Shown piece after piece: positions 40 through 9,379 of a stretch of DNA of 64,000 nucleotides (position 1 is its first letter; every line of letters starts with the position of its first letter). The translations under genes and the position numbers were made by a program. The notes beneath the pieces were generated by a model. That model did no database searches. It was not told the origin of the DNA and worked only from the letters and a program-made list of their open reading frames with translations. This DNA comes from Bacillus sp. FJAT-18017 (GTDB taxonomy: Bacteria; Bacillota; Bacilli; Bacillales; Cytobacillaceae): positions 1,513,501-1,577,500 of the forward strand of contig NZ_CP012602.1 of assembly GCF_001278805.1 (NCBI RefSeq). The letters are read 5' to 3'.

Positions 40-70
40 CCATCCAGCCTTATTGCTGGATGGTTTTGGG
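40..70 (+). terminator. Terminator of a gene upstream of the window
   Basis: A stem with arms CCATCCAGC and GCTGGATGG closes a 6-nt loop and is followed by a short T-rich tract. It probably ends transcription of a gene lying before base 1, because no coding sequence is visible in bases 1-39. Confidence 0.55.
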
Positions 71-176: not shown

Positions 177-1397
177 ATGGAAGTTGGACCATTAATTAAG
201 TACTACAGGACTCAAAGGGGGATGACGCAAAAGGAGCTTGCTGATGGAATATGCTCCATTCCTCATCTTAGTAAGATTGAGCACAACTCCAAGGAAGGGA
301 ATAGGGAAACCATTGCACTCCTGCTTGAAAGGCTGGGAATAGAGGTCGAGGATATTGAAGGAAAAGATGGGGAGATCAAGCAGCTGCTAGAAGATTTTGA
401 TGCAGCGATGAATTTCCAAATTCGGACCGAAGCCGACTTTCTATTTGAAAGACTATCAGGTTTAGGCAGTCTCATTCATTTCTCATCGTATATGTATACA
501 TATGAACTCTATAAATATAGATATCTTTTGTTTAAGGGGTATGCAAGCGATGCAGAAAGCCAGAATGATTTGCTTAGGAAGCAGTCGAACAATTTTTCCC
601 GGGAGGAGAGAAACCTATTTGATTATTTTATCAGCATTCATTTAATGTCCAAGGCAAAATACCATCAAGCCGATCTTATCCTAGAAAGACTGGACGGCCA
701 ATTTATGGGAAATTTGAATATCGGTGAGTTCCTTTATCACCGGGCATTTGCCAAGAGCCACATGCTGGAGCCAGGCCATGCCATTCATTTTGGTAAAAAA
801 GCCCTTCAGCATTTTATGGAGCAGCATAATTTTAGGCGAATCCTTCATGTGCTAATGCTGCTTGGCATCAACTACACCCATTCCAAAATTTATGAAGAAG
901 CGTCGTCATGCTTCGTGCATTTAATCCGCAATGCTGAGCTTCTGAACGAGCAGGCGCTGCTGCCAATGATTTATCACAATATGGGTTTCCTGCAAAAAAA
1001 AATGCAAAAACCAAATCAAGCCATCCACTTTTTTGAAAAAAGCCTGTCCATGAAAAAGGAAAAAGGGATAGATTATCTTGTCACTCTGTATACCATTGCT
1101 GAGACGAAGCATTCTACAGGAGAAACCGAAGTAGCAAAGGCCTATTTCGAGGATGTCCTCGCCCAGGCTAACGAGCTGGGCAGTAAGAAATACAAGAATC
1201 TTGCGTCTTTCTACCTGATGCTGGATTCCTCCGAACCAAAAGCATACGAGTATTTACAGGCAAAAGTTATTCCTTTGTTGGAAGATGGGAAAGAGCATAA
1301 AGATGATCTTGCCCATTTCTATAAATTGCTTGCCGAACATTACACCCAGGAGGGAAAGTTCGAACAGGCAGTCATTTATTTAAATAAAATTAATTGA
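177..1397 (+). CDS. RNPP-family (NprR/PlcR-like) peptide-sensing transcriptional regulator
   Basis: A 406-residue cytoplasmic protein. Residues about 6-60 form an XRE-type helix-turn-helix (RTQRGMTQKELADG, then IPHLSKIE). The rest is helical with the spacing of TPR repeats (for example YHNMGFLQKKMQKPNQAIHF and KFEQAVIYLNK near the C terminus). This HTH-plus-TPR layout is that of RNPP regulators, and the length is closer to NprR (about 420 aa) than to PlcR (about 285 aa). Such proteins bind a short re-imported peptide in the TPR groove, which changes DNA binding or partner interactions. The next gene starts 11 bp after the stop and encodes a small secreted peptide, as expected for a receptor-pheromone pair. 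The start has a TGGTGAGG ribosome site. The targets are unknown. Confidence 0.88.
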   Translation: MEVGPLIKYYRTQRGMTQKELADGICSIPHLSKIEHNSKEGNRETIALLLERLGIEVEDIEGKDGEIKQLLEDFDAAMNFQIRTEADFLFERLSGLGSLIHFSSYMYTYELYKYRYLLFKGYASDAESQNDLLRKQSNNFSREERNLFDYFISIHLMSKAKYHQADLILERLDGQFMGNLNIGEFLYHRAFAKSHMLEPGHAIHFGKKALQHFMEQHNFRRILHVLMLLGINYTHSKIYEEASSCFVHLIRNAELLNEQALLPMIYHNMGFLQKKMQKPNQAIHFFEKSLSMKKEKGIDYLVTLYTIAETKHSTGETEVAKAYFEDVLAQANELGSKKYKNLASFYLMLDSSEPKAYEYLQAKVIPLLEDGKEHKDDLAHFYKLLAEHYTQEGKFEQAVIYLNKIN

Positions 1398-1408
1398 GGA
1401 GGAGTACA

Positions 1409-1603
1409 ATGAAAAAAGCAATTATCATCCTTAGTTCGGCATTTGCCCTTGGTTTGTTCGCAATAGGTGCTGCACCTGCATCAGCACACCCTATCCATCC
1501 GCCGTTAACGGTCGAGGATACCGCCGCAGCGCATCCGATCCACCCACCGCTTTCTGTAGAGGATTATAAGTCTGCGCATCCAATTCACCCACCACTCATC
1601 TAG
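1409..1603 (+). CDS. Putative pheromone precursor with three HPIHPPL repeats
   Basis: A 64-residue peptide. Residues 1-26 form a Sec signal peptide (KK, a hydrophobic core, then ASA). The remainder is a 15-residue unit beginning HPIHPPL at residues 27, 42 and 57, joined by acidic TVED and SVED spacers; the last copy ends one residue later with Ile. Every copy is preceded by a small-x-Ala triplet (ASA, AAA, KSA) resembling a signal-peptidase site. The three copies are identical in protein, but six of seven codon positions vary synonymously between them, so the peptide sequence itself appears to be selected. The ATG is preceded by GGAGGAG overlapping the stop of the regulator gene, so the two genes are probably co-transcribed and translationally coupled. 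A cell-cell signal is an inference; a metal-binding His-rich exported peptide is the main alternative. Confidence 0.8.
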   Translation: MKKAIIILSSAFALGLFAIGAAPASAHPIHPPLTVEDTAAAHPIHPPLSVEDYKSAHPIHPPLI

Positions 1604-1618
1604 AAAACCGAATAAAGC

Positions 1619-1652
1619 GAAAGGCGCACCCACTAAGGAGTGCGCCTTTTGT
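1619..1652 (+). terminator. Rho-independent terminator after the peptide gene
   Basis: AAAGGCGCAC and GTGCGCCTTT form a 10-bp stem around an ACTAAGGA-type loop, running into Ts 16 nt after the peptide stop codon. It closes the regulator-peptide operon. Confidence 0.85.
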
Positions 1653-6980: not shown

Positions 6981-7415
6981 TTAACGGCAGCCGCAGCCTT
7001 TGCCCATATGCTTGCCGGAATACGCGCCGGCTACACCTGTTCCTGGTCCCATTGCTGGTCCAGGCTGATAAGCACCGGCGACGCCAGTACCAGGTCCCAT
7101 CATGCCAGGCATCATACCAGGCATCATACCAGGAGTCATTCCGGGGGCCATTCCAGGGCCGGGCGCATAAGCACCAGCAACGGATGGACCAGGCGGAAGG
7201 CCAGGCTGAGGGCCGATGTCTGACATTGATGTCACGTTCTGGAAGGACTGTGACTGCGGGAAGAAATGTGCATTCTGGATATTTGTATGGTTTACATGTG
7301 TCGTATGAGTTGGATGCACATGCGGCTGCAGAACGTTATTGTAAGAATGAGTATAGCAGCACTTTGTAGGATGGACGATTGCAGGCAATACCTGCGTTGG
7401 TCTTGGACAATGCAT
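6981..7415 (-). CDS. CotD-family spore coat protein
   Basis: A 144-residue low-complexity protein. The N-terminal half is His/Cys-rich (HCPRPTQVLP, HPTKCCYTHSYNN, HPTHTTHVNHTNIQN), as in CotD, the coat protein with HPTH-type blocks. The C-terminal half is built of Gly/Pro/Met repeats (PGMMPGMM, GPGTGVAGAY twice) ending KGCGCR. The ATG at 7415 is chosen over a TTG six codons upstream because the GAGAGGGG ribosome site lies between them. Transcription is expected late in the mother cell. The repeat tail is probably variable in copy number between strains. Confidence 0.82.
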   Translation of the reverse strand: MHCPRPTQVLPAIVHPTKCCYTHSYNNVLQPHVHPTHTTHVNHTNIQNAHFFPQSQSFQNVTSMSDIGPQPGLPPGPSVAGAYAPGPGMAPGMTPGMMPGMMPGMMGPGTGVAGAYQPGPAMGPGTGVAGAYSGKHMGKGCGCR

Positions 7416-7429
7416 TCTATTTTCCCCTC

Positions 7430-7693
7430 TCAATAGGTTTTTGTTACAGTATTAGCGTATGAGAGAAGGTGTGCTATTGTACTAAGGCAAGTACCTATTT
7501 TTGCATGAATCCTATATACAAGGAAATGTAAGGATTCACATGGCTCCACTATTTCTACTTTATCTACAAAATCATTAGTCAGTCTGACACAAACTCCGTT
7601 TTCAAACCAGTACATCGATGCGTTACAGGCATTATCCGCTACCTTTCCCCTTATACAAATACCAGCAGCAAAAATCGCTGATGGAGGTTTCAC
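7430..7693 (-). CDS. Hypothetical 87-aa protein upstream of cotD
   Basis: An unrecognised small ORF with four cysteines. Its GTG start lies inside a dispersed repeat and has an AAGGAG ribosome site 5 nt away. Its stop codon abuts the ribosome site of cotD, which would fit an operon. No domain, signal peptide or strong composition bias is visible, and the first codons come from repeat DNA. It may be a repeat-generated new ORF, the remains of an older gene, or simply non-coding. Confidence 0.3.
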   Translation of the reverse strand: MKPPSAIFAAGICIRGKVADNACNASMYWFENGVCVRLTNDFVDKVEIVEPCESLHFLVYRIHAKIGTCLSTIAHLLSYANTVTKTY

Positions 7694-8179: not shown

Positions 8180-9379
8180 ATGCAAATCGGGCAGGAAAAC
8201 CAACAAACCGATCATACGAGTTCAGCTAAAATCTGGACAAGGGATTTTATTTTAATCTGTTTTGCAAACTTCTTTGTTTTTCTCGGCTTTCAAATGACGC
8301 TTCCAACGATTCCGCTATTTGTCGAGCATCTCGGCGGGAACGACCAGATGATTGGCTTTGTTGTTGGTGCGTTCACCTTTTCCGCACTTATCCTTCGCCC
8401 TTTCGCAGGCCAATTTCTTGAAACAAAGGGAAGGCGGTTCGTCTTTTTAACCGGGCTTGTGATCTTTGTTTTTTCTGTTGGTTCATTTGGCTTTGCGACA
8501 GGATTTGTATTCCTGTTTCTGATCCGTTTCATTCAGGGAGCGGGATGGGGCTTTTCAACAACCGCATCCGGGACGATTGCGACCGACCTGATACCGCCCG
8601 CCCGCAGAGGTGAAGGAATGGGCTATTACGGGTTATCGGGGAATTTAGCATTGGCGGCAGGTCCATCCCTTGGGCTTATCCTGGCTGGGTTTATTCCGTT
8701 TAAAACTTTATTCCTAATTTGTTCGGGTTTGGGACTGGCCGCGTTGCTGCTCGCTTCAACGATCCGCTACAAACGTGTCGAGAAAAATGCCAGAACGACC
8801 GCCCTTAAGTGGGACTTTTATGAAAAAAGCGCCATGCAGCCAGCAATCCTGATGTTTTTCATTACCGTGACGTTTGGAGGAATCGCAGCTTTCTTACCGT
8901 TGTATACAGCACAGAAGAATATCGGCGGGATTGAATTGTATTTTTTGATTTATGCGCTCGCACTAATGCTGACTCGGGCGTTCGCAGGCCAAATCTATGA
9001 TAAGAAAGGGCATAGGGCTGTAATTATTCCCGGAACCTTCTTAATCCTTTTAGCCATGGTTCTGCTCGCCTGGCTTCCGAACCAAATTTCTCTTTTTGCG
9101 GCTGCCATCCTCTATGGCCTGGGCTTCGGCACCATTCAGCCAGGCTTACAGGCATGGGCAATGGAAAAAGCTCCGAAAAACCGACGGGGAATGGCGAATG
9201 CGACGTTCTTCTCGTTCTTTGACCTTGGAATTGGCGTTGGTTCGCTTCTATTCGGACAAATCGCCCATAACTTTGGCTACTCAAGCATTTATTGGACTTC
9301 TGCAGGCTCGGTACTTTGTTGCATGCTTTTTTATTTTTTCTTATTGTCTAAAGAGGCTGGGAAGGGTCATGCAGTTTAA
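8180..9379 (+). CDS. Major facilitator superfamily transporter
   Basis: A 399-residue protein with about twelve transmembrane segments. The MFS loop 2-3 signature is present in modified form (GQFLETKGRRFVF), and a second copy occurs in the C-terminal half (GQIYDKKGHRAVI). The size and layout fit a drug/proton antiporter or a small-molecule exporter, but the substrate cannot be read from the sequence. A GGGGGGG run precedes the ATG. Its stop codon overlaps the next gene by one base (TAATG), suggesting a two-gene operon. Confidence 0.85.
   Translation: MQIGQENQQTDHTSSAKIWTRDFILICFANFFVFLGFQMTLPTIPLFVEHLGGNDQMIGFVVGAFTFSALILRPFAGQFLETKGRRFVFLTGLVIFVFSVGSFGFATGFVFLFLIRFIQGAGWGFSTTASGTIATDLIPPARRGEGMGYYGLSGNLALAAGPSLGLILAGFIPFKTLFLICSGLGLAALLLASTIRYKRVEKNARTTALKWDFYEKSAMQPAILMFFITVTFGGIAAFLPLYTAQKNIGGIELYFLIYALALMLTRAFAGQIYDKKGHRAVIIPGTFLILLAMVLLAWLPNQISLFAAAILYGLGFGTIQPGLQAWAMEKAPKNRRGMANATFFSFFDLGIGVGSLLFGQIAHNFGYSSIYWTSAGSVLCCMLFYFFLLSKEAGKGHAV

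Follow-up and report, generated by a model that had tools for sequence, protein, structure and literature searches.

The window analysed here is a stretch of 64,000 nt from Bacillus sp. FJAT-18017 (NZ_CP012602.1, positions 1,513,501-1,577,500 of the forward strand), which opens with an NprR-like regulator gene followed directly by a small gene encoding three HPIHPPL units (Table 1). A secreted subtilisin gene lies directly upstream of the regulator, its stop codon 11 bases before the first base of the window; the enzyme, 415 aa long when counted from the start common to its relatives, matches PF00082 (E 1.4e-54), and its closest solved relatives are SubTY and sphericase. The ribosome-binding site of the small gene overlaps the regulator's stop codon, and translation of the precursor ORF may be coupled to that of the regulator. 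The hairpin CCATCCAGC...GCTGGATGG, followed by TTTTGGG, was recognised by eye and was not picked up by the terminator scan; its GGATGGTTTTGGG is kept in 7/7 aligned loci, and it is possibly a terminator that separates the subtilisin gene from the regulator. The inverted repeat behind the precursor gene could likewise be the terminator of the receptor-pheromone unit; the scan scored it on the - strand (1 site found versus 2.0 expected in shuffles), while the TTTT that follows it on the + strand was noted by eye. Elsewhere in the window, a histidine-rich ORF of 150 aa with repeated GVAGAY segments (6981-7433, - strand) presumably resembles a CotD-type spore coat protein, as judged by eye.

Table 1. 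Features of the receptor-pheromone locus (positions within the window).
Feature	Position	Strand	Remarks
Hairpin between the upstream subtilisin gene and the regulator	40..70	+	by eye
NprR-like regulator, probable pheromone receptor, 406 aa	177..1397	+	HTH_3 and TPR repeats; first gene in the window
Ribosome-binding site AGGAGG	1397..1402	+	overlaps the regulator's TGA (1395-1397); read from the sequence, with Shine-Dalgarno score
Probable pheromone precursor gene, 64 aa, three HPIHPPL units	1409..1603	+	ATG at 1409, 11 bases past the regulator stop; homologues P0001, P0002
Predicted signal peptide, residues 1-26, ending in ASA	1409..1486	+	hydrophobic segment after Lys; putative cut
Pheromone copy 1, HPIHPPL	1487..1507	+	read from the sequence
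Pheromone copy 2, HPIHPPL	1532..1552	+	read from the sequence
Pheromone copy 3, HPIHPPL, then one Ile and the stop	1577..1597	+	read from the sequence
12-bp inverted repeat behind the precursor gene	1620..1649		scored on the - strand only

In a profile search, the receptor showed TPR_12, TPR_2, TPR_8 and TPR_1 above cut-off, and structural comparison returned an N-terminal HTH with an NprR-type fold, NprR itself being the best fold match. None of the four Spo0F contacts of B. thuringiensis NprR (D107, Y118, E188, Y223) is kept in the one pairwise alignment made, the receptor having H101, K113, N181 and H217 instead; for this reason we class it as NprR-like and not as a bifunctional NprR. In this alignment, the NprR peptide contacts W167, H201 and R126 align to Y162, H195 and G121 of the receptor, and R126, Y165, N306, D309 and R343 are altered, which counts to some extent against the proposed pair. 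H201 of NprR stacks on the bound peptide, as described in passages of PMC4970707. An origin of the locus in a mobile element was considered and discarded: no phage record was found, and the two plasmid records were only 27-28% identical.

The product of the small gene reads MKKAIIILSSAFALGLFAIGAAPASA-HPIHPPL-TVEDTAAA-HPIHPPL-SVEDYKSA-HPIHPPL-I, with three identical heptapeptides at an exact period of 15 residues and spacers that differ from each other at 4/8 residues; the isoleucine after the third copy is absent from P0001 and P0002, the two closest homologues. Nothing in Pfam or NCBIfam scored above cut-off for this product. Only 2 of 200,000 shuffles of residues 27-64 contained any repeated 7-mer, which shows that the repeats did not arise by chance, and a degenerate DNA pattern for HPI[HY]PP occurs at three sites in the 5.27 Mb genome, all inside this gene (reversed-pattern control, 0). 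The start codon, the ribosome-binding site and these counts agree that the three-copy ORF reported by the first-pass annotation is real; its statement that six of seven codon positions differ among the copies has to be corrected, as codons vary at all seven while the residues are invariant. Pairs of the RRNPP(A) type combine a receptor of 250-500 aa carrying TPR repeats with an adjacent exported propeptide of 10-100 aa at an intergenic distance of -60 to 400 bp (PMC10075063). The receptor here has 406 aa and TPR repeats, and the candidate propeptide, 64 aa long and 11 bp downstream, appears to begin with a hydrophobic, signal-like N-terminus.

The regulator was found at E 1e-40 or better in 100 of 193 genomes of the window's family, and at 1e-30 in 91 of 397 genomes sampled from the order. 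We gathered 105 distinct loci whose regulator shows 40% identity or more; in 92 of them, PIxPP was recovered by a strict rule (an exported-looking ORF of 24-130 aa near the regulator stop), with the ORF start always -17 to +21 bases from the stop, versus 0/105 both on the reverse strand and upstream. Frame-by-frame reading of the 13 misses found PIxPP in 12; the thirteenth, L147, has no sequence behind the regulator and was omitted from further counts. In all 104 readable loci (receptor at least 40% identical, at least 100 bases of downstream sequence), PIxPP occurs in a forward frame within 450 bases downstream of the receptor, whereas three controls, namely the reverse strand, a 450-base stretch on the upstream side and the 450 bases beyond the downstream stretch, gave 0/104 each. 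Among 24 more distant receptor relatives, two had PIxPP. Comparison of the regulator's neighbours across roughly a hundred orthologous loci therefore shows that it is the repeat unit that is conserved while the spacers drift, and the small gene is very probably, on these comparisons, the pheromone precursor of the adjacent regulator, as had been proposed. A secreted His/Pro-rich peptide with another role, such as metal binding, antimicrobial activity or a wall component, that merely lies beside the regulator would account for a product that is exported, repetitive and unmatched by any Pfam or NCBIfam family above cut-off. We regard this as very improbable, since Thr and Tyr replace His in sister species, some relatives encode little or nothing beyond the unit (11-23 aa), and the unit stands behind the receptor in every readable locus.

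A signal-like start was present on the PIxPP ORF in 96/104 loci, 92 of them by rule and four (L089, L101, L102, L148) by eye. The shortest signal-bearing product, that of L101 with 23 aa, consists of a signal peptide and HPIWPPV and nothing more, which points to the heptapeptide as the unit. In five loci, PIxPP is encoded immediately after the receptor in leaderless ORFs of 11-16 codons: the products of L131, L132 and L134, whose three genomes share a genus that is not part of the window's family, are MKRKAPILPPIV, MKKAPILPPVT and MNMKAPILPPVT, and those of L098 and L058 are MNKTIQTAMVPIQPPI and MEKRRASNPPIQPPV. Four of these ORFs have a clear Shine-Dalgarno stretch, that of L058 being weaker. 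Export is doubtful for the short PIxPP ORFs of L087 (22 aa) and L092 (24 aa), and in L064 the unit lies in a different frame from the signal peptide; export is thus not universal in the PIxPP family. The receptor frame of L102 is interrupted by a stop, and the PIxPP unit follows further downstream; this stop and the frame split of L064 possibly reflect decay or an assembly error. Genome G021, which has a five-copy array, also encodes a second regulator, 31% identical, with its own precursor ending in TDPIQPPTIPHNQSLL (L108), so that a single cell may contain two related signals. Ten distant NprR-like paralogs (L105-L107, L109-L115; 27-30% identity) lie upstream of a same-strand subtilase gene and have no PIxPP within 450 bases.

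More than one copy was found only in the window's genus, in 8/8 genomes, with 3, 3, 3, 2, 2, 5, 3 and 5 copies, while the remaining 96 of the 104 loci have a single copy. A tree of 107 receptors, made with a quick method, places those of the arrays in a single clade (SH-aLRT 100); L102 and L147 were omitted from this tree, and its 11 strict-rule misses have one copy each. Bacillus sp. EB01, Neobacillus notoginsengisoli and N. piezotolerans, identified from records with matching coordinates, are among the members. Each array is uniform in amino acids: four genomes have HPIHPPL throughout, three have TPIYPPL, and one has HPIYPPL, which the metagenome protein P0002 shares. The spacers are one to eight residues long. 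Between the window and its closest relative, L002, the 21 repeat codons show five synonymous and no amino-acid changes, and the 16 spacer codons show one synonymous and four amino-acid changes (residue changes 0/21 versus 4/16, p 0.03, small numbers). The repeats are not immutable, as all three share one H-to-Y change in L003 relative to the window, with spacers differing by eight residues. With the H-to-T switch at position 1 of the unit, 41 receptor columns differ, among them 195, which aligns to H201 of NprR and holds histidine where the array reads HPI.PPL (five receptors) and tyrosine where it reads TPIYPPL (three receptors); as this is one transition in one clade, the change at 195 hints at co-evolution but does not amount to a test of it.

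How these arrays might be processed bears on the function of the additional copies. The first-pass annotation had placed a small-x-Ala site before each copy, which holds for the first copy, where a cut after ASA would leave copy 1 at the new N-terminus, and fails for KSA, with Lys at -3, and as a general site. Across the eight arrays, [ASGTVIL].[AGS] precedes 7/8 first copies versus 6/18 internal copies, and Ala stands at -1 before 4/18 internal copies. The small residues before first copies would then simply be the signal-peptidase site, and the want of a common site before internal copies makes cutting by extracellular proteases more likely there. Such processing has a parallel in the duplicated Phr105, both copies of which can be matured, with the supernatant proteases WprA, NprE and Bpr implicated, according to passages of PMC11343458. 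The same data on cleavage are compatible with a precursor from which one copy only is matured, either the first at its signal-peptidase-like site or the last, which needs a single cut, the internal copies being by-products of unequal recombination. A single copy does suffice in the other 96 loci, and the five-copy arrays seem to have expanded recently, their units reaching identities of 1.0 in L006 and 0.95 in L008. Nevertheless, we consider one-copy maturation unlikely: the window copies have diverged at all seven codon positions with their residues unchanged, the repeats of the window and L002 have taken synonymous changes only while their spacers changed residues, and synthetic Phr105 pieces with either copy are processed by B. 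subtilis supernatant (also in passages of PMC11343458).

The preferred reading, a multi-copy precursor paired with its receptor, extends to the neighbouring protease gene. A subtilisin gene lies at most 500 bases upstream on the same strand in 68/105 loci and downstream in three, and was absent from the available flank in 34; three of these 34 (L099-L101) have a seemingly adjacent M4-type protease, as judged by eye. A subtilase was also nearby in 18 of 24 distant receptors. In 20 of 26 genomes chosen because their receptor is not beside the subtilisin, no ortholog of the window enzyme was found at 1e-80, and the receptor must therefore often do without it. Of 27 linked loci, three were dropped, L160 and L164 for want of a start and L166 for want of a match; in 24/24 readable promoters that remained, a TTTCCCAA box lies 106 to 118 bases before the subtilisin start. 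It was likewise present in 8/8 rows with the receptor elsewhere in the genome (6 distinct loci, three genera), and in 0/10 loci without a receptor at 1e-40 (9 genomes with enzymes 62-71% identical), a control that spans two genera only and is thus confounded with ancestry. A search of 38 further receptor-less genomes found no subtilisin ortholog and hence added no box control. The box ends 20-22 bases before the -35 element in 20/24 promoters, with hexamers chosen by best score, and this distance corresponds to an activator-like position. G091 (L182/L189) and G096 (L183/L188) each have a back-to-back pair of subtilisin genes separated by roughly 330 bases; L189 yielded the same gene as L182, and L188 the same as L183, so that the box was scored for one gene per pair. 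In the subtilisin leaders (for example L116, about 8690-8741), a simple regex found a hairpin-like GCAG...CTG element after the -10 in 15/26 upstream stretches, which is perhaps an mRNA-stabilising leader.

Beyond this promoter, the 10-mer occurs 79-147 bases upstream of two more subtilases (L192, L236) in the window's genome; within the same range it also precedes the gene of a secreted endonuclease I protein (L221) and two partial cases, a PIG-L deacetylase (L209) and a CBM96 protein (L205). Box sites followed within 60-260 bases by a ribosome-binding site and an ORF of at least 60 aa numbered 23/72 versus 5/22 in the reversed control, a weak difference; at 90-135 bases the counts were 10/72 versus 0/22. 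Over whole genomes, the excess of ATTTTCCCAA does not go with the presence of the receptor: the ratio was 2.33 for the window's genus, 1.57 for g14, which has the receptor, and 2.38 for g7, which lacks it (from 38 of the 193 rows, comprising g1, g3 and g7 in full, 11/36 of g10 and 9/21 of g14), and the box as a mark of a genome-wide regulon is accordingly unproven. These 10-mer counts would also fit a box that belongs to another regulator co-occurring with the receptor, which would itself control something else, as would the origin of the receptor-less loci in two genera and the 20 unlinked-receptor genomes that lack the subtilisin ortholog. We think this rather doubtful, yet deserving of weight; against it stand the box in 30/30 distinct readable receptor loci, including six with the subtilisin elsewhere, versus 0/10 without the receptor, and its near-fixed distance to the -35.

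Taken together, we propose, with a probability of roughly 0.8, that the locus encodes an RRNPP(A)-type receptor-pheromone pair nearest to NprR-NprX, with a triple-copy precursor, in which the peptide-bound receptor activates the subtilisin gene through the TTTCCCAA box. Drawing on NprR and Rap biology for the steps that lie past the sequence evidence, we put forward the following hypothetical course, in which (i) the precursor would be exported by Sec; (ii) signal peptidase would free the N-terminus of copy 1; (iii) extracellular proteases would cut in the spacers and release up to three HPIHPPL per precursor, additional copies thereby increasing the peptide yield; (iv) an oligopeptide permease would import HPIHPPL, the genome encoding three oligopeptide-binding proteins above the PF00496 cut-off; (v) the imported peptide would bind in the TPR groove of the receptor; and (vi) the receptor would then act at the box to switch on the subtilisin gene upstream and probably further secreted enzymes as well. 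An attractive addition would be that the subtilisin itself releases the pheromone. A wider scheme, which we offer only tentatively, would have a single family of receptors read a PIxPP signal that is encoded in some relatives by leaderless ORFs of 11-16 codons, in others by one secreted copy and, at the far end, by secreted arrays of five. For the window's genus, a self-amplifying loop would run from the receptor, a transcription factor without the Spo0F contacts of NprR, through the box to the subtilisin and back to the cutting of spacers, with copy number setting the gain and whole-array changes of pherotype matching the receptor. The leaderless PIxPP peptides would perhaps act inside the producing cell or leave it by another exporter.

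About a hundred loci of Bacillaceae and related bacteria thus gain a probable signal (xPIxPPx), a receptor and a target promoter together, and quorum control of a secreted subtilisin becomes testable with synthetic peptides. As one genus offers a natural series of two, three and five copies with three pherotypes, it also becomes testable why pheromones repeat, and how repeats stay identical while specificity shifts. The leaderless relatives raise the question of whether a PIxPP signal must leave the cell at all. Among the papers listed for PIQPP, PILPP, PIYPP or PIHPP, none dealt by title with quorum sensing, and among those listed for the TTTCCCAA box none was relevant by title; literature searches likewise returned no NprR binding consensus and no report of receptor-subtilisin adjacency. 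The PIxPP signal family and its apparent link to a subtilisin gene look undescribed, with the proviso that the tables of the 2016 and 2022 surveys may already list these genes.

Within the Bacillus cereus group, nprA adjoins nprRX. NprR-NprX shares with the present pair the HTH and TPR fold, a precursor gene directly downstream and a secreted protease that is controlled or linked; in B. thuringiensis, NprR targets NprA (passages of PMC4970707 and PMC3325205). In contrast, the window family has xPIxPPx in place of SKPDIVG, three copies in the window and an S8 subtilisin upstream, and in the one pairwise alignment its receptor keeps none of the four Spo0F-contact residues and few of the named peptide contacts; no SKPDIVG-like pheromone was found in the window, with its HPIHPPL, or in the 104 readable loci, all with PIxPP. 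The multi-copy design, which the first-pass annotation had taken to be new in the NprR family, is already in print for NprX and Phr precursors (passages of PMC5199041, PMC9765709 and PMC11343458), and the window array therefore belongs to a known kind. Some nprX genes contain duplications (Even-Tov 2016, in passages of PMC5199041), and 17/17 oversized NprR propeptides have repeats, with up to six identical copies (mBio 2022 survey, in passages of PMC9765709). These precursors, NprR-associated ones included, resemble ours in their identical internal repeats of the mature pheromone; no PIxPP appears in the passages of PMC5199041 and PMC9765709 that were consulted, and the window clade differs in its series of two, three and five copies, uniform arrays and three pherotypes. 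Phr105, paired with Rap105 of phage phi105, likewise carries its peptide twice in the precursor, a 4-residue spacer separating the identical copies (passages of PMC11343458). Unlike the window locus, which is chromosomal and has no phage match, that system consists of a phage-borne Rap without an HTH and the peptide ERPVGT. The yeast alpha-factor precursor also carries tandem identical peptides in one secretory precursor; the window precursor differs in having no dibasic processing sites, and its receptor and import route are unrelated.
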